From positions 1 to 21,100 of IMG/VR virus record IMGVR_UViG_3300007541_000287: 21,100 nt of DNA; one strand, 5' to 3'. This DNA is from a virus. Below, piece by piece: positions 2,924-8,807 of the stretch. How positions within the stretch are numbered: position 1 is the first letter of the stretch; each line of letters begins with the position of its first letter. A program made the position numbers and the translations under genes. The notes beneath the pieces are model-generated. The model was not told where the DNA came from. It did no database searches and saw nothing but the letters and a program-made list of their open reading frames with translations.

Positions 2924-3418
2924 ATGAGTACGTTGAAATTTAATAAATGGCAGAGCATAGATGGAGTGACCCGCAATGCTGTGTTGCAAGTTGTTTACCA
3001 AGAAAATTTTGGATACAGTAACACTTTTTATACTAATACAACTTCAACTTTTGGTGACGCAACAAATATGTCTGCCACTATCACACCTACATCGGCCACC
3101 TCAAAAATAATGATAGAGTCTGTAGGGGGTGGATTGCTGATAGGTTCTGCATCCAGCGCTGTGTTTAGGTTGTTGGCTAACGATGTAGTTGTTTGGACTA
3201 ACGATAGATGGGGGTATACGAATTCAGGCTCGTGGGTCGCAGTAAATTGGGGTTCAAAAACCATTCATTCACCAGCATCTACATCTCCTGTCACATATAA
3301 ATTTCAAATAATGGCAACGGCTGGAACCTCCCCTCAAGCAAGGATAGGAGATACTTCATCGGGTGCTAGTTCCGAACTAACCTACACAGCAGTTATTTTG
3401 ACGGAGATAGCACAATGA
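2924..3418 (+). CDS. MSTLK-type tail protein with beta-sandwich-like domain
   Basis: The chosen start at 2924 gives 164 residues. An in-frame ATG at 2906 would add six residues inside the previous gene, but MSTLKFNKWQSIDG at 2924 matches the usual MSTLKVxxI start of phage fibre-tip proteins, so the later start is preferred. The body (residues about 25-160) is beta-rich, with the pattern ITPTSATSKIMIES near residue 50 and a final Y-T-A-V-I-L-T-E-I strand. I recall this pattern in many cyanophage structural proteins. No SD stronger than GGTGG/AAGA lies upstream, so coupling to the 2709 gene is likely. It is probably a virion surface protein of the distal tail; the ligand is unknown. Confidence 0.75.
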   Translation: MSTLKFNKWQSIDGVTRNAVLQVVYQENFGYSNTFYTNTTSTFGDATNMSATITPTSATSKIMIESVGGGLLIGSASSAVFRLLANDVVVWTNDRWGYTNSGSWVAVNWGSKTIHSPASTSPVTYKFQIMATAGTSPQARIGDTSSGASSELTYTAVILTEIAQ

Positions 3419-3870
3419 TTACAGCAGCAGACGCACTTATCTCTCTCAAGCCTGGAGCGCAATGGACATGGTCAGGGACAGAATATTCTGGCCTTAACTG
3501 GTTAGATACGGAACAAACCAAACCAACCGTAGAAGAAATCAATGCTGAGATTGAAAGACTCAAAGCAGTTGAACTTGCAAAATATTATCAACAACCAAGG
3601 CAGGCAGAATATCCCCCACTTGCCGATCTTGCTGATGCACTCTATTGGCAGTCTCAAGGTGATGATACAAAGATGACAGCATACCTTGCTGCTTGTGATG
3701 CCGTGAAGACAAAGTATCCAAAAGACATGGAAGTACCTTCAGCAGTGGTGCAGGCGATCAATGCCGTATCATTGTTAACGGTACCAGAAGAAGTAGAGGA
3801 AGAAGAACCAGAAGAAGAGGTTTCTGCCAATCCCCAACCAGTTAACGGAGTGAGCATAGACAATGGCTAG
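3415..3870 (+). CDS. XkdW-like small tail-associated protein
   Basis: This encodes 151 residues. It starts inside the previous stop (ATGA at 3415-3418) and overlaps the next gene by 8 bases. Features in order are an N-terminal part with WTWSGTEYSGLNWLD, a helix with TVEEINAEIERLKAVE (about 41-56), the motif RQAEYPPLADLADALYW (about 63-79), a helix ending KTKYPKDM, and a strongly acidic linker EEVEEEEPEEEV (about 126-137). The AEYP..D..DALYW pattern is shared with XkdW-like and other small tail proteins coded next to phage fibres. The role is not firmly known; an assembly or connector protein for the neighbouring fibres is plausible. The acidic stretch looks like an added flexible tail. Confidence 0.65.
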   Translation: MITAADALISLKPGAQWTWSGTEYSGLNWLDTEQTKPTVEEINAEIERLKAVELAKYYQQPRQAEYPPLADLADALYWQSQGDDTKMTAYLAACDAVKTKYPKDMEVPSAVVQAINAVSLLTVPEEVEEEEPEEEVSANPQPVNGVSIDNG

Positions 3871-4366
3871 TGTATTGAAAGTTGATACCATAAAGAGCCT
3901 TGCAGGTAACGAGGCAATGACTATTCATGAGAGTGGGGTGCCGTTGCTGCAGGTGCCTATGTTTTCTATGAGACTTCTTTCCGATAAAAGTATTACAAGT
4001 TCAACCTCTCAAACTTTAATCCTAGATGACGTTATTATAAACACTAACAATTGGTACAACACAACCACTGGATTTTTTGCGCCTACTATTGCTGGGTATT
4101 ATCAAATCAATGGAACTATTTCTTACAGAGCAACTAGTGGTATGACTAGGATGATTGCAAGATTAATAAACGAAAATGACGATTTCACAGATGGCGGAGA
4201 TGTAGCACCGCCTGCTGCTACCGTGGGTAGAGTGTCTTTTTCTACAGTACGATATTTTAATGGCACCTCAAACACTGCAAGATTATCCTATTACACAATT
4301 GCAACAACCCCAATTATAGAAAGCAACCTCACTTCTTTTTCAGGCTTCCTAGTGAGAGGCGCATAA
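3863..4366 (+). CDS. C1q-like tail-tip protein, copy 1
   Basis: This encodes 167 residues and overlaps the previous gene by 8 bases. The N-terminus MASVLKVDTIKSLAGNEAMT is the typical short anchor seen in phage fibre-tip proteins. Residues about 32-167 follow a C1q/TNF-like jelly-roll pattern: an aromatic/polar first strand, FFAPTIAGYYQINGTISY in the centre, a strand with ARLINENDD, VRYFNGTSNTARLSYY, and a final FSGFLVRGA. C1q-like domains form trimeric beta sandwiches that bind ligands at the apex, so a receptor- or surface-binding tip is likely (inference). It is the first of four consecutive paralogues of diverged sequence, and its acidic loop ENDDFTDGGD is not shared by the others. Confidence 0.75.
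   Translation: MASVLKVDTIKSLAGNEAMTIHESGVPLLQVPMFSMRLLSDKSITSSTSQTLILDDVIINTNNWYNTTTGFFAPTIAGYYQINGTISYRATSGMTRMIARLINENDDFTDGGDVAPPAATVGRVSFSTVRYFNGTSNTARLSYYTIATTPIIESNLTSFSGFLVRGA
4342..4353 (+). repeat. 12-nt seam AGGCTTCCTAGT, copy 1
   Basis: This is the 3' end of the first C1q-like gene and encodes the core of SGFLV. The identical 12 bases, including the CTA leucine codon, recur near the end of all four C1q-like genes. Confidence 0.85.
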
Positions 4367-4367
4367 T

Positions 4368-4865
4368 ATGTCAAGACTAAACGTAGATCAGATATACACT
4401 CGCACAGGCACTGGCACACCGGCAATACGGGAGATGCCTGCTTTTGGTGTTGAACTCCTTAACAATCAGGCCATCAACTCAAATACCGACACTTTGGTTC
4501 AGTTTGATACGACTAATTTTGATTTTGGTTCTTATTGGGACGGCACAAATTTTCGTTACCTGCCATTGATTGCTGGGTATTATCAATTCAATGCTACATT
4601 GAGATTTACTTCAACAAGTGCTTCCCAGCTTAGAGTAACTCTTTCAAAAAACGGAACGTATATTATTTCATCCCAAGTACAGTTATCTAGTGCTATATTT
4701 ACACCTACCCATGTATCAGTCTCCCATCTCATGTACTGTAATGGGTCATCGGATTATGTGGATATTATAGGTCGTTCAGGAAGTGCTAGTGGTAATCTAG
4801 GGGGAACTGATGACACCACTGTTGGCGGTTGTCACTTTTCAGGCTTCCTAGTCCGACCAGACTAA
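4368..4865 (+). CDS. C1q-like tail-tip protein, copy 2
   Basis: This encodes 165 residues and begins one base after the preceding stop. The N-terminal anchor is MSRLNVDQIYTRTGTGTPA. The C1q-like body runs from about residue 24 to the end: AFGVELLNNQAINSNTDT, then YLPLIAGYYQFNATLRF in the middle, LRVTLSKNGTYI, HLMYCNGSSDYVDIIG, and a terminal FSGFLVRPD. The GYYQFNA and NGSSDYVDI elements match the family hallmark G-Y-Y/F-x-F and V-x-L-x-x-G-D-x-V. It is probably a trimeric tip protein like its neighbours, with sequence divergence outside the core strands that would fit different ligands (inference). Confidence 0.75.
   Translation: MSRLNVDQIYTRTGTGTPAIREMPAFGVELLNNQAINSNTDTLVQFDTTNFDFGSYWDGTNFRYLPLIAGYYQFNATLRFTSTSASQLRVTLSKNGTYIISSQVQLSSAIFTPTHVSVSHLMYCNGSSDYVDIIGRSGSASGNLGGTDDTTVGGCHFSGFLVRPD
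4841..4852 (+). repeat. 12-nt seam AGGCTTCCTAGT, copy 2
   Basis: Identical to 4342-4353, at the 3' end of the second C1q-like gene. The following bases differ (CCGACC instead of GAGAGG). Confidence 0.85.
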
Positions 4866-4884
4866 CAATGAGAGATTATAACGA

Positions 4885-5478
4885 ATGCCAAGTATAATAA
4901 ATTCAGATGACGGTCAAACTTCAGGTTCAGCAGGACTGAAATTCACTTCAGGTGATGATGGCGTCTTAAAAATCCAAAACAACGGCACGGATGCGTTGAC
5001 AATTGCCGATACGGGGGCCATGACTTTTGCACAACAGCCCGTGGTTCCTGTGCCTGCTTTTAGAGGATATCTTAGTGCAGACCAATCAATCTCTTCAAGT
5101 ACTGAAACAAAAGTTAATATTGATACGGTGACCGGAGAAGGATTTTTTGATACTAACGGATGGTTTGATACAACTAATTATAGGTATACTCCTCAGATAC
5201 CGGGTTATTATTTTGTCATGGGTAACATAAGAACGGGAGGAACAAATCAGTCGGTTCAATATGTTTCTATTTTTAAGAATGGTGCCCAATATGAGGTTGG
5301 AGAAATACAAAGAGAAATTAATATTGTTAACGTTGTCGTTTCTTCACTGGTATATATGAACGGGACCACCGATTATGTAGAGCTTTATGGTTACATAACC
5401 GCAACATCTCCTACTTTTGATTACGCTAGTAACAGCGCAACTTGTTTTTTCTCAGGCTTCCTAGTGAGGGCTGCATAA
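4885..5478 (+). CDS. C1q-like tail-tip protein, copy 3
   Basis: This encodes 197 residues, longer than copies 1 and 2 because of an extended N-terminal module (residues 1-55: GLKFTSGDDGVLKIQNNGTD then ALTIADTG), which is a small beta module common ahead of phage C1q-like domains. FAQQPVVPVPAF links it to the C1q-like body, which contains NYRYTPQIPGYYFVMGNIR, VSIFKNGAQYEV, SLVYMNGTTDYVELYGYI and the terminal FSGFLVRAA. A 19-base gap separates it from the previous stop, and only a weak GAGAG lies upstream. The linker and the NYRYTPQI.GYY stretch are shared with copy 4, so these two are the closer pair. Confidence 0.75.
   Translation: MPSIINSDDGQTSGSAGLKFTSGDDGVLKIQNNGTDALTIADTGAMTFAQQPVVPVPAFRGYLSADQSISSSTETKVNIDTVTGEGFFDTNGWFDTTNYRYTPQIPGYYFVMGNIRTGGTNQSVQYVSIFKNGAQYEVGEIQREINIVNVVVSSLVYMNGTTDYVELYGYITATSPTFDYASNSATCFFSGFLVRAA
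5454..5465 (+). repeat. 12-nt seam AGGCTTCCTAGT, copy 3
   Basis: Identical to 4342-4353. The identity with copy 1 extends further, through CAGGCTTCCTAGTGAG. Confidence 0.85.
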
Positions 5479-5479
5479 C

Positions 5480-6064
5480 ATGACCACCATACACACAGGT
5501 AATACCACAACCACAGGATTTGTTGTTGATGCAGACAACACTGGTAACCTCGTCATCAAGACTGGAGGATCGGGTGGCACAACAGCTTTAACCATAGATG
5601 ATTCACAGACTGCTACGTTTGCCAATCAACCCGTTGTTCCAGTGCCAGTTTTTATGGCGTATAGAGATACGTCAACACAAAGTGTAACTTCTGGTACAAA
5701 TACGAAAGTACAATTGAATGCTTTAGAGTATGATACTAATTCTTGGTTTGATGCTACTACTAATTATAGGTACACACCACAAATAGCAGGTTATTATCAG
5801 TTCAATGCTCTAATTTATTTTTCTGGAACTGGTCTTACAAATGGAACAGCTAGAATTTATAAGAATGGGAATGTCACTATAGATGGACATTTTCTTTCAA
5901 CCACGTCAGCAACTTTTATATATGCTATGTCTTCCGGTGTAATATATCTAAATGGAACAACTGATTATGTGGAACTTTTTGGTTATGTATCAGGAACAAA
6001 TCCATTGATACGAAATGATGTCAATAAAACATGGCTCCAAGGCTTCCTAGTGAGAGCAACATAA
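5480..6064 (+). CDS. C1q-like tail-tip protein, copy 4
   Basis: This encodes 194 residues and starts one base after the preceding stop. The N-terminal module (FVVDADNTGNLVIKTGGSGG then TTALTIDDS) and the linker FANQPVVPVPVF parallel copy 3. The C1q-like body includes NYRYTPQIAGYYQFNALIYF, ARIYKNGNVTI, GVIYLNGTTDYVELFGYVSG and the terminal LQGFLVRAT, where Gln replaces the Ser found in the other three. It is expected to trimerise and act at the fibre tip or another exposed tail site (inference). The stop is followed one base later by the shaft gene at 6066, so the four C1q-like genes and that gene appear to be one transcription unit. Confidence 0.75.
   Translation: MTTIHTGNTTTTGFVVDADNTGNLVIKTGGSGGTTALTIDDSQTATFANQPVVPVPVFMAYRDTSTQSVTSGTNTKVQLNALEYDTNSWFDATTNYRYTPQIAGYYQFNALIYFSGTGLTNGTARIYKNGNVTIDGHFLSTTSATFIYAMSSGVIYLNGTTDYVELFGYVSGTNPLIRNDVNKTWLQGFLVRAT
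6040..6051 (+). repeat. 12-nt seam AGGCTTCCTAGT, copy 4
   Basis: Identical to 4342-4353. Downstream identity continues as GAGAG, as in copy 1. Confidence 0.85.
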
Positions 6065-6065
6065 C

Positions 6066-6830
6066 ATGGCACTCAATTTTCCTGACAGTCCTAATCTAAA
6101 CGACACCTATAGTCTTGACGATAAAACATGGGTGTGGAATGGTTATGGTTGGAAACTACAATCAACTACTAACGTAACAAATTTAGCCAATTCTGCTTTT
6201 ATACAAGCTAATTCAGCCTTTGACCACGCTAACGCAGCTTTTGACGCTGCTAATAATTCAGTTGATTTATGGGTAAGAGATGCTGCTAATAGTGCTAGTT
6301 CTTATGCTAACTCTGCTTTTGAAAGTGCTAATAGTGCAGGTGTTTATGCTAATTCAGCCTTTGAAGCTGCTAACAATGCAACCGACACTTATGTAAGAAA
6401 TCACGCAAATGCTGCCTTTGACCAGGCAAACACAAATGCTAGTGACATTATAGTTCTTCAAGGTGTCGATGCAACTCAGAACACAAGTATTACAAACCTA
6501 GAAGGTGTTAATCTTACACAAAATACTAATATCACAAATGCACAAAGCACTGCTTCTGGAGCATTTGACCATGCTAATGCAGCTTTTGAAACTGCAAATA
6601 GTAGTGGCGCTTCTGTTGCTGTAAGTGATTCACCACCAGATTCACCAACAGCTAATAGTCTTTGGTGGCAAAGTAATACAGGTACTTTAAAAATTTATTA
6701 CAGTGATGGTGACAGTTCTCAGTGGGTTGAAGTCATTGCTATTCCAACCACTTTAGTTGACCAATTTGCAAGAGACACAGCAAATAATGCTTCAGGTTCT
6801 TCAATTGCTTTAGCAATTGCATTGGGGTAA
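6066..6830 (+). CDS. Tail-fibre shaft protein rich in ANxAF heptads
   Basis: This encodes 254 residues and starts one base after the previous stop. The N-terminus MALNFPDSPNLNDTY then WVWNGYGWK (1-30) is a short module also heading the next gene (MAFNFPNNPSVNDEV). From residue 39 to 122 the protein is almost entirely ANSAF/HANAAFD heptads with short interruptions (DLWVRDAAN, DTYVRNHAN). Two 14-residue LQGVD/LEGVN units follow (131-158), with another heptad block (166-179). Residues 183-224 form a small module (SPPDSPTANSLWWQS ... SSQWVEVI) also seen in the fibre at 1588. It is a stalk-dominated protein with no obvious globular tip, so it may be a connector carrying one of the adhesins. The stop is embedded in TAAATAAATAG. 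Confidence 0.85.
   Translation: MALNFPDSPNLNDTYSLDDKTWVWNGYGWKLQSTTNVTNLANSAFIQANSAFDHANAAFDAANNSVDLWVRDAANSASSYANSAFESANSAGVYANSAFEAANNATDTYVRNHANAAFDQANTNASDIIVLQGVDATQNTSITNLEGVNLTQNTNITNAQSTASGAFDHANAAFETANSSGASVAVSDSPPDSPTANSLWWQSNTGTLKIYYSDGDSSQWVEVIAIPTTLVDQFARDTANNASGSSIALAIALG
6183..6251 (+). repeat. Heptad repeat block in shaft gene
   Basis: Encodes residues 40-62, three and a half consecutive units of (A)N(S/A)AFxx (FIQANSAFDHANAAFDAAN), the cleanest run in this gene. The same period continues with interruptions to residue 122. Confidence 0.75.
6456..6539 (+). repeat. Two tandem 14-residue LQGVD/LEGVN units
   Basis: Encodes residues 131-158, matching 133-216 of the first fibre gene at protein level with one or two substitutions. 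The DNA is clearly similar but carries several synonymous changes, so the copy is not very recent. Confidence 0.8.
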
Positions 6831-6845: not shown

Positions 6846-8807
6846 ATGGCATTCAACTTTCCTAATAATCCCTCAGTAAATGACGAAGTAACATTTGGTA
6901 CAATAACCTATGTTTGGAATGGCACATCTTGGGAATCTGGCAGTACAGGTCTAAGTTACGCTGAAGTAGCAAATCGTATTGACTTTACTTCAGACCGTGC
7001 TAACTCAGCTTTTGAATTAGCAAACAACTCTTCTCTTTGGGCAGTTCGTCAATCATTTGTTGCGACTGCTAATCAATCAGTATTCAATATTTCAACTGGT
7101 TATTTGCCAAACTATGTTGATGTGTTTTACAATGGAATTAAATTGTATGATGGTGAAGACTATACTGCTAACAATGGTTCTTCAGTTATTCTTACAAACC
7201 CAGCACCAGTTAATACAATCATCGAAGTTCTTTCTTTTGGTGCCAACGTATCAACAACAAACCTTTATGTTCTAGCATCAGCAACAGGTTTTTCTTCAAG
7301 ACAATCATTTACTGCAACAGAAGGACAAACCACATTTAATCCTACTGGCGGTTATCGTGTTGGTTACATTGATGTGTTTTACAATGGTATAAAATTAAAT
7401 ATACCAACAGACGTAACTGCTAATAACGGTACAGATGTTGTTTTTGTTGGATTGACACCAACAGCTGGTGACCTGATTGAAACGATTGTAATAACACCAG
7501 ATGTGAGTATTGCAAATGCAGTACCAATTACTGGTGGTACAATAAGTGGTAACATAACAATAGCAGGCAATATTTTACCATCTTCAACAAACACATACTA
7601 TCTTGGTTCAGATACGCAAAGATGGCATTCACTATTTGTCAATTCAAATTCGATTGATATTGATGGTTTAGTTTTAAGTAATCAAAATGGAACTCTTGCA
7701 GTATCATCTGGTGGTGCAGAACCAACACCAATTGCAGGTGAAGACACATGGGTCAGAGATCATGCCAATGCTGCGTTTGCTGCAGCCAATAATGTTGGAC
7801 CACAAATAGAACCAGCGTTTGCTCAGGCTAATGCTGCTTTTGAAGCAGCTAACTCAGTAAATGTCTATGGTGCAAATACGAATTCAAATACATTTTTTGC
7901 TTTACCTATTGGTACCACAGACGATAGGCCTGCCAACGCAGCTAACGGCCATATAAGATACAATACAACTTTAGAGAGACTCGAAACTTATCTTTACAAA
8001 TCAGGATGGACTTCTGTAGTAAATGATAATTATAGTATTGAATATTTAATAGTTGCTGGTGGAGGTGGAGGAGGAAGTGTTGAAACGCTTAATGGAGGAG
8101 GCGGAGGAGCTGGAGGTTATCGTTCTTCTGTACCTGGCGAGTCTTCTGGTGGAGGTGATCCTGCTGAAGCAACATTCACTGTATCTGGAGGAACAACATA
8201 TACCATAGTTGTTGGTTCGGGTGGAGCTGGCTCTGCAACGCCAGGTGGATCAGATTCCGCTGGAGCTCAAGGAAGTAATAGTTCTTTTGGTAACATAGTT
8301 TCTATTGGTGGCGGTGGAGGCGGCGGTAATACGATTGATGCAACATCAGGTGGCTCTGGTGGCGGAGGAAAAGAGTCTAGCGGTCCTGGTGGTGCTGGAA
8401 CACCGGGTCAAGGATACGGCGGTGGTCCTGGTAATGAAGCAGGCAACTACTCTGGTGGTGGAGGAGGTGCTGGTGAAGCCGGTAGCACAGATGGAACTAG
8501 ATATGGTGGTGATGGTGTTGAATCATCTATTGATGGTACACCTACCTATCGAGCAGGAGGAGGTTCTGCAACACCAGCTGCAGGTTCAGCTGGATTAGGT
8601 GGAGGCGGTGCTGTTAGTACCGAAGGAACGGTAAATACTGGCGGTGGCGGTGGCGGTGGTGTTTCAACTGGCGGCGGTAAAGCGGGTGGCTCAGGAATTG
8701 TAATCATTCGTTATATTGGACCACAAAGGGGTTTGGGTGGTACAGTCACCACCACTGGTAATTATACTGTTCATACATTTACTGGTTCAGGAACTTTTAC
8801 AGCTTAA
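6846..8807 (+). CDS. Modular adhesin with tandem repeats and large polyglycine domain
   Basis: This encodes 653 residues, the largest protein in the window. Order of parts: an N-terminal module MAFNFPNNPSVNDEV (1-33); two tandem ~70-residue repeats (68-136 and 152-221) sharing RQSFxAT and DVFYNGIKL; an LGSDTQRWHSLF fibre motif (253-264); heptads (306-336); a FALPIGTTDDRP...NGHIRYNTT module (350-375); a glycine-rich domain from about 400 to 622 with runs such as AGGGGGGS and TGGGGGGGVSTGGG; and a C-terminal strand TVHTFTGSGTFTA. The Gly-rich part resembles the phage/bacterial glycine-rich domain family and, by analogy with gp38-type adhesins of T-even phages, may fold as packed polyglycine-II helices displaying variable loops. 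Receptor binding is inferred. It is the first of three paralogues with this C-terminal design. Confidence 0.85.
   Translation: MAFNFPNNPSVNDEVTFGTITYVWNGTSWESGSTGLSYAEVANRIDFTSDRANSAFELANNSSLWAVRQSFVATANQSVFNISTGYLPNYVDVFYNGIKLYDGEDYTANNGSSVILTNPAPVNTIIEVLSFGANVSTTNLYVLASATGFSSRQSFTATEGQTTFNPTGGYRVGYIDVFYNGIKLNIPTDVTANNGTDVVFVGLTPTAGDLIETIVITPDVSIANAVPITGGTISGNITIAGNILPSSTNTYYLGSDTQRWHSLFVNSNSIDIDGLVLSNQNGTLAVSSGGAEPTPIAGEDTWVRDHANAAFAAANNVGPQIEPAFAQANAAFEAANSVNVYGANTNSNTFFALPIGTTDDRPANAANGHIRYNTTLERLETYLYKSGWTSVVNDNYSIEYLIVAGGGGGGSVETLNGGGGGAGGYRSSVPGESSGGGDPAEATFTVSGGTTYTIVVGSGGAGSATPGGSDSAGAQGSNSSFGNIVSIGGGGGGGNTIDATSGGSGGGGKESSGPGGAGTPGQGYGGGPGNEAGNYSGGGGGAGEAGSTDGTRYGGDGVESSIDGTPTYRAGGGSATPAAGSAGLGGGGAVSTEGTVNTGGGGGGGVSTGGGKAGGSGIVIIRYIGPQRGLGGTVTTTGNYTVHTFTGSGTFTA
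7047..7253 (+). repeat. DVFYNGIKL tandem domain, unit 1
   Basis: Encodes residues 68-136 of the adhesin. It shares RQSFxATxxQxxFN, GYxxxYxDVFYNGIKL, TANNG and IIE positions with the unit at 7299-7508, indicating internal domain duplication. Confidence 0.8.
7299..7508 (+). repeat. DVFYNGIKL tandem domain, unit 2
   Basis: Encodes residues 152-221. It is diverged from unit 1 outside the core motifs but keeps nearly identical DNA over the DVFYN codons (GATGTGTTTTACAATGG in both). Confidence 0.8.
7782..7849 (+). repeat. 68-bp direct repeat, copy A
   Basis: Matches 9342-9409 with a single mismatch (position 7838 T versus 9398 C), including 56 bases of perfect identity. It encodes heptads around AANNVGPQIEPAFAQANAAF in two paralogous adhesins. 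Confidence 0.9.

Follow-up and report, generated by a model that had tools for sequence, protein, structure and literature searches.

The window, a 21.1 kb virus record, contains a fibre region located upstream of genes for T4-type neck, sheath stabiliser, terminase, sheath, tube and portal proteins, as identified by PHROG matches. The neck, sheath, tube and portal genes of T4 type, along with a terminase resembling gp17, mark the record as that of a T4-like myovirus; T4-like cyanophages and a pelagibacter phage have large terminases that share 52-54% identity with the one in the window. Inside the fibre region lies an array of four C1q-like genes, which, like the neighbouring genes and the sequence elements described below, are on the + strand. 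Gene 1 (3863..4366, 167 aa) consists of an adapter up to about 3964, a head and the tail GFLVRGA; gene 2 (4368..4865, 165 aa) of an adapter at 4368-4445, a head that appears to have been replaced, and the tail GFLVRPD; gene 3 (4885..5478, 197 aa) of an adapter at 4885-5061, a head and the tail GFLVRAA; and gene 4 (5480..6064, 194 aa) of an adapter at 5480-5653, a head and the tail GFLVRAT. The array is preceded by a non-C1q tail fibre gene of phrog_6942 (2924..3418) and a conserved small gene of phrog_9114 (3415..3870). As an earlier note on this DNA had held, most of each C1q-like gene is strongly diverged, with 29-34% protein identity between genes 2-4 and gene 1, and the genes are tightly packed, the next ATG following the stop codon after 1, 19, 1 and 1 bases.

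All four C1q-like genes match phrog_15750. The Pfam C1q profile, PF00386, recognizes gene 1 above the cut-off (28.3 vs 23.7) and gene 2 below it (17.4); neither gene 3 nor gene 4 is matched by Pfam. Gene 3, the only one of the four that was modelled, was predicted as a monomer with AlphaFold2 from 63 aligned relatives. The head of this model, with a pLDDT of about 85-98, is predicted to adopt the gC1q/TNF-like jelly-roll fold: the model aligns with the solved gC1q domains of C1QL1 and C1QL3 (TM 0.85-0.86 by target, E 1.7e-9), and lower-ranked structural matches include the knob and petal domains of a phage central spike. In the model, the first strand of the head starts from residue 58 and the last beta strand spans residues 188-196, so that the 5' and 3' seams described below would encode both edge strands. 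The termini of known gC1q domains lie near each other. In this uncultured virus, for which the host is itself inferred, the C1q-like heads are probably receptor-binding knobs and probably trimeric.

Near the end of each C1q-like gene, over the Gly-Phe-Leu-Val codons, there is an exact copy of the 12-mer AGGCTTCCTAGT (4342..4353, 4841..4852, 5454..5465 and 6040..6051), the copy in gene 3 falling in the predicted closing strand of its head. The earlier note had placed these four copies correctly, and there are no other exact copies in the record; none occurred in 100 dinucleotide shuffles of it. The Gly, Phe and Leu codons (GGC, TTC and CTA) are the same in 4/4 copies, as had been claimed, whereas the Val codon, for which the same claim was made, varies, and so does the Arg codon. 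CTA and TTC account for 13-15% and 19-27% of their codon families in the window, and given the codon usage of the window, four independent draws would agree at Gly, Phe and Leu together with a probability of 1e-4 to 3e-4. Among the other invariant columns (start Met left out), 3 of 17 have one codon, in each case the common TTT or TAT. In pairwise comparisons within the window, same-residue codon agreement is 21/24 (88%) in the seam vs 140/314 (45%) elsewhere (P 6e-5, the pairs not being independent); a column test yields P 0.02 for Gly-Phe-Leu and 0.10 once Val and Arg are included.

Variable adhesin genes that end in an exact repeat might suggest a site-specific recombinase or a diversity-generating retroelement acting on the seam, but this is extremely improbable: none of the annotated window genes was identified as encoding a recombinase or reverse transcriptase, the 12-mer has no inverted copies in the window and is missing from nearly all related loci, and the heads differ throughout, not at selected bases. 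In other loci, the Gly-Phe-Leu codons vary freely (for Leu, TTA 28, TTG 9, CTT 6 and CTA 1), so we read the 12-mer as a mark of this lineage. Judged by the sequence comparison, it is most plausibly left over from shared ancestry or gene conversion in this lineage, and is best read as something other than a functional site; its exactness would signify a recent common copy of the four ends, by duplication, gene conversion or repeated exchange.

The bases directly 3' of the 12-mer position behave differently, in that the pattern AGG-NNN-GCA-TAATG is strongly conserved across the family. Among 63 distinct genes from other loci that have Arg third from the end, 49 (78%) encode it by AGG, whereas AGG accounts for 15% of Arg codons within gene bodies (P 6e-24). 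In 43 of them, the stop and the following ATG overlap in the manner of TAATG, and the use of AGG at this Arg depends on a nearby ATG (P 0.001). This signal looks like a Shine-Dalgarno site from which the next gene would be translated, and that would be why the pattern is conserved family-wide. In the window, the putative embedded ribosome-binding site is represented by GAGAGG with the stop/start junction of genes 1 and 2 (4354..4370) and by counterparts at 5466-5482 and, weaker, at 6052-6068. The gene 2/3 junction is the sole array junction that lacks the GAGAGG/GAGGG tail signal; a nine-codon ORF (ATG to TAA, 4868-4897) is located between these genes and overlaps the start of gene 3. An embedded Shine-Dalgarno site would make sense of the tail remaining next to the gene that follows it; it does not account for the Gly-Phe-Leu codons. 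The conservation of AGG-NNN-GCA-TAATG and its tie to a nearby ATG lend some credence to the idea that the seam bases are simply fixed by the needs of the encoded strand and of ribosome binding at the following gene, without recombination, but such constraint covers the codons after the 12-mer, not the freely varying Gly, Phe and Leu codons, and leaves the 5' seam and the head replacements described below unaccounted for, which makes it an improbable explanation of the whole.

The history of the heads can be traced by comparison with L005, a 4.4 kb IMG/VR locus that is syntenic with the window (gene 2709, 2924, 3415, C1q 1, C1q 2, adapter 3 and C1q 4) and retains the N-terminal adapter of every array gene. 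The islands conserved between the two span the tail of one gene and run into the adapter of the next, and the heads between them differ. The vertical baseline for synonymous divergence is provided by gene 3415-3870, with 84% amino acid identity and codon agreement of 62/118 (53%). C1q 1 is orthologous to L005 gene 1 over its whole length, with heads that are 52% identical and reciprocally best. In C1q 2, the identity is 96% in the adapter, 28% in the head and 100% in the tail, and the L005 head ranks 108th of 114, no nearer than random family members; gene 2924-3418 has the same anatomy, with 87% identity in the adapter, 34% in the middle and 100% over the last four residues. Flanking codons agree with L005 at about half, whereas codon agreement in the swapped heads of these two genes is 23/77, not above the random expectation of 36% (P 0.002 vs gene 3415-3870; P 0.0006 vs all flanks). 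Random agreement inside the heads and not in the flanks argues against mere fast protein evolution because selection on the protein alone would not erase synonymous agreement there alone. L005 also carries the window's adapter at position 3, including a run of 17 consecutive identical codons (4951..5001; P about 0.009 at the baseline rate), but there it is attached to an unrelated tail-fibre domain with a weak carbohydrate-binding match (L005:2429-3673). In L005, this tail-fibre gene is followed by an extra 55-codon gene that the window lacks. For gene 4, the codon test runs in the opposite direction, with 48% agreement in the head and 31% in the adapter, and trees of the short, long-branched heads do not reject orthology with L005 (p-AU 0.38 at position 2 and 0.59 at position 4).

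The other edge of the mosaic is marked by a Pro-x-Phe motif at the start of the head. In gene 2, the DNA alignment with L005 (blastn segment 3403-4445) stops at this 5' seam, TPAIREMPAF (4416..4445). By blastn and codon alignment, the corresponding seam of window gene 3, TFAQQPVVPVPAFR (5020..5063), matches L005 gene 4 instead of L005 gene 3, with 93% identity over 44 nt; the 11 identical codons in a row at this seam are not unusual alone (P 0.32). The same edge is found in other pairs of IMG/VR loci, of which two show it most clearly: L067 and L083 share 189 nt with 2 mismatches, and L032 and L034 share 109 nt with 2 mismatches, in both cases up to the Pro-Ala-Phe codons, with immediate divergence beyond. 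Conserved flanks around an apparently replaced binding domain are thus found in gene 2 and gene 2924-3418 of the window/L005 comparison, in L067/L083 and in L032/L034.

The edges were also surveyed among 81 distinct C1q genes from the window, L005 and other IMG/VR loci. Of the one-sided upstream alignments in this set, 30 of 46 stop no more than about 13 nt past Pro-x-Phe, and 336 of 379 downstream ones begin 2-46 nt before the stop; these counts are descriptive because the pairs overlap and are not independent, and local alignments stop where conservation stops, whatever the cause. When 68 genes were scanned without gaps, a single pair remained. Tandem C1q pairs in L016, L033, L037, L060, L065, L074 and L080 have DNA in common from 8-36 nt before the stop, with heads 38-46% identical at the protein level. 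One of these loci carries five C1q-like genes (L074:2689-9002), two of which are 81% identical in DNA along a 241-nt stretch that begins 24 nt before the stop, whereas their heads are 39% identical at the protein level. Across the wider family, codon agreement in heads (54%) is not below that in adapters (46%), so that the synonymous test is uninformative there.

The reading that we consider likely is that C1q heads are exchangeable between short conserved junctions. It draws on the seams themselves, the L005 mosaic, the sharp 5' breaks in identity between other loci, the C1q fold predicted for gene 3 and the ribosome-binding signal in the sequence. The four genes would encode small tail-fibre-associated proteins, each combining a position-specific N-terminal adapter with a C1q-like head, and the head would be replaced via recombination between two junctions, one at Pro-x-Phe, which opens the first strand of the head, and one formed by the closing Gly-Phe-Leu-Val-Arg strand together with the adjoining stop codon and downstream gene start. 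Since this 3' junction usually also holds the ribosome-binding site of the following gene, it would remain with the resident array. T4-like phages are recombination-proficient, and judging from the anatomy of the junctions, homologous recombination at the seams most likely does the swapping. The proposal in the earlier note that the 12-nt seam is a recombination boundary holds insofar as head and gene-content changes relative to L005 have edges there and the same edge recurs in unrelated loci. As a dedicated site, however, the seam does not stand, given that its synonymous codons vary freely in other loci and that the 12-mer is the right-hand edge only, the left one being Pro-x-Phe. Since this left edge precedes the head, what is swapped is the head domain, not a whole-gene cassette as had been suggested. 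That note missed both the other seam, at the opposite end of the domain, and the ribosome-binding site embedded immediately 3' of the 12-mer.

The array could alternatively have arisen by tandem duplication, one C1q gene being copied three times, with the heads diverging fast for new receptors and the seam kept by constraint and gene conversion. The uncommon GGC-TTC-CTA codons common to all four copies, the similar adapters of genes 3 and 4 (the heads of which are 42% identical) and the closing beta strand encoded by the seam fit this scenario; nevertheless, it appears unlikely because the position-2 heads are at random-level codon agreement with L005 when adapters and tails are not, the heads of window genes 2-4 have better matches in other phages than among themselves, and the L067/L083 heads differ next to nearly identical DNA. 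Tandem duplication, which the earlier note had also named, may still have given rise to the four positions themselves.

Head exchange between conserved junctions makes the locus resemble the distal tail-fibre adhesin locus of the T-even phages, in a T4-like virus with conserved motifs flanking variable adhesin segments. According to Tetart, Desplats and Krisch (1998; cited in PMC7468147), short conserved motifs flank the variable segments of T-even adhesins and reportedly act as crossover points. There, the motifs are in the distal long tail fibre, whereas in the window they bound C1q-fold heads in an array of small genes, and unlike in the T-even locus, the 3' motif also carries the ribosome-binding site of the next gene. 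In the E. coli phage tailspikes, conserved motifs up- and downstream of an exchangeable receptor-binding domain have been proposed as recombination hotspots (PMC10408124); these share with the window a conserved anchor, an exchangeable binding domain and flanking motifs, but belong to other phage genera and hosts, and the parts of that report available to us do not describe C1q heads or a tandem array. C1q-domain genes are among the more frequent variable recognition genes in marine phage genomic (metaviromic) islands (PMC3909814), and cryoconite phages encode C1q-domain putative receptor-binding proteins for which recombination was proposed (PMC7468147). As far as the accessible portions of these reports go, their C1q genes resemble those in the window in combining a variable head of putative receptor-binding function with a conserved N-terminus; the source of variation is described at the gene or domain level only, and nucleotide-level edges, a four-gene array or a 3' seam are not described (PMC3909814, PMC7468147). 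Adhesin mosaicism is thus of a known kind; new here is the mapping of its edges for the C1q fold. Assigning the edges to two short motifs, the 3' one also serving as a translation signal, yields a testable rule for the sites of head exchange and allows head and adapter to be tracked separately in metagenomes. More tentatively, and with somewhat more doubt than confidence, we suggest that aquatic phages share a pool of C1q-like heads that are exchanged across unrelated tail-fibre contexts via two edges defined by structure, one at the first beta strand and the other at the last; the embedded ribosome-binding site for the next gene would fix the 3' edge, and arrays like the one in the window would represent several independently refilled slots.

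In the collections searched, L005 is the sole close relative of the array. An exact 17-mer scan of IMG/VR produced three matches beyond L005, none in a C1q gene; the DNA pattern for QPVVPVP[AV]F found L005 as the only homologue in IMG/VR and 11 matches in GTDB, none with a homologue of window genes; an adapter search with a slightly blended query recovered L005 alone; and blastn against isolate phages yielded no match. The loci of the nearest neck-protein relatives mostly lack the C1q-like block.

The window contains a second adhesin-like array, composed of three more paralogous genes with glycine-rich domains (6846-8807, with PF21722, 9186-10448 and 10453-11514), the C-terminal ends of which are alike (GGTVTT...HTFTGSGTFTA-like). 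Alanine-rich repeats of the NAAFDAAN type are present in these glycine-rich genes as well as in the fibre genes at 1-1131, 1588-2712 and 6066-6830.
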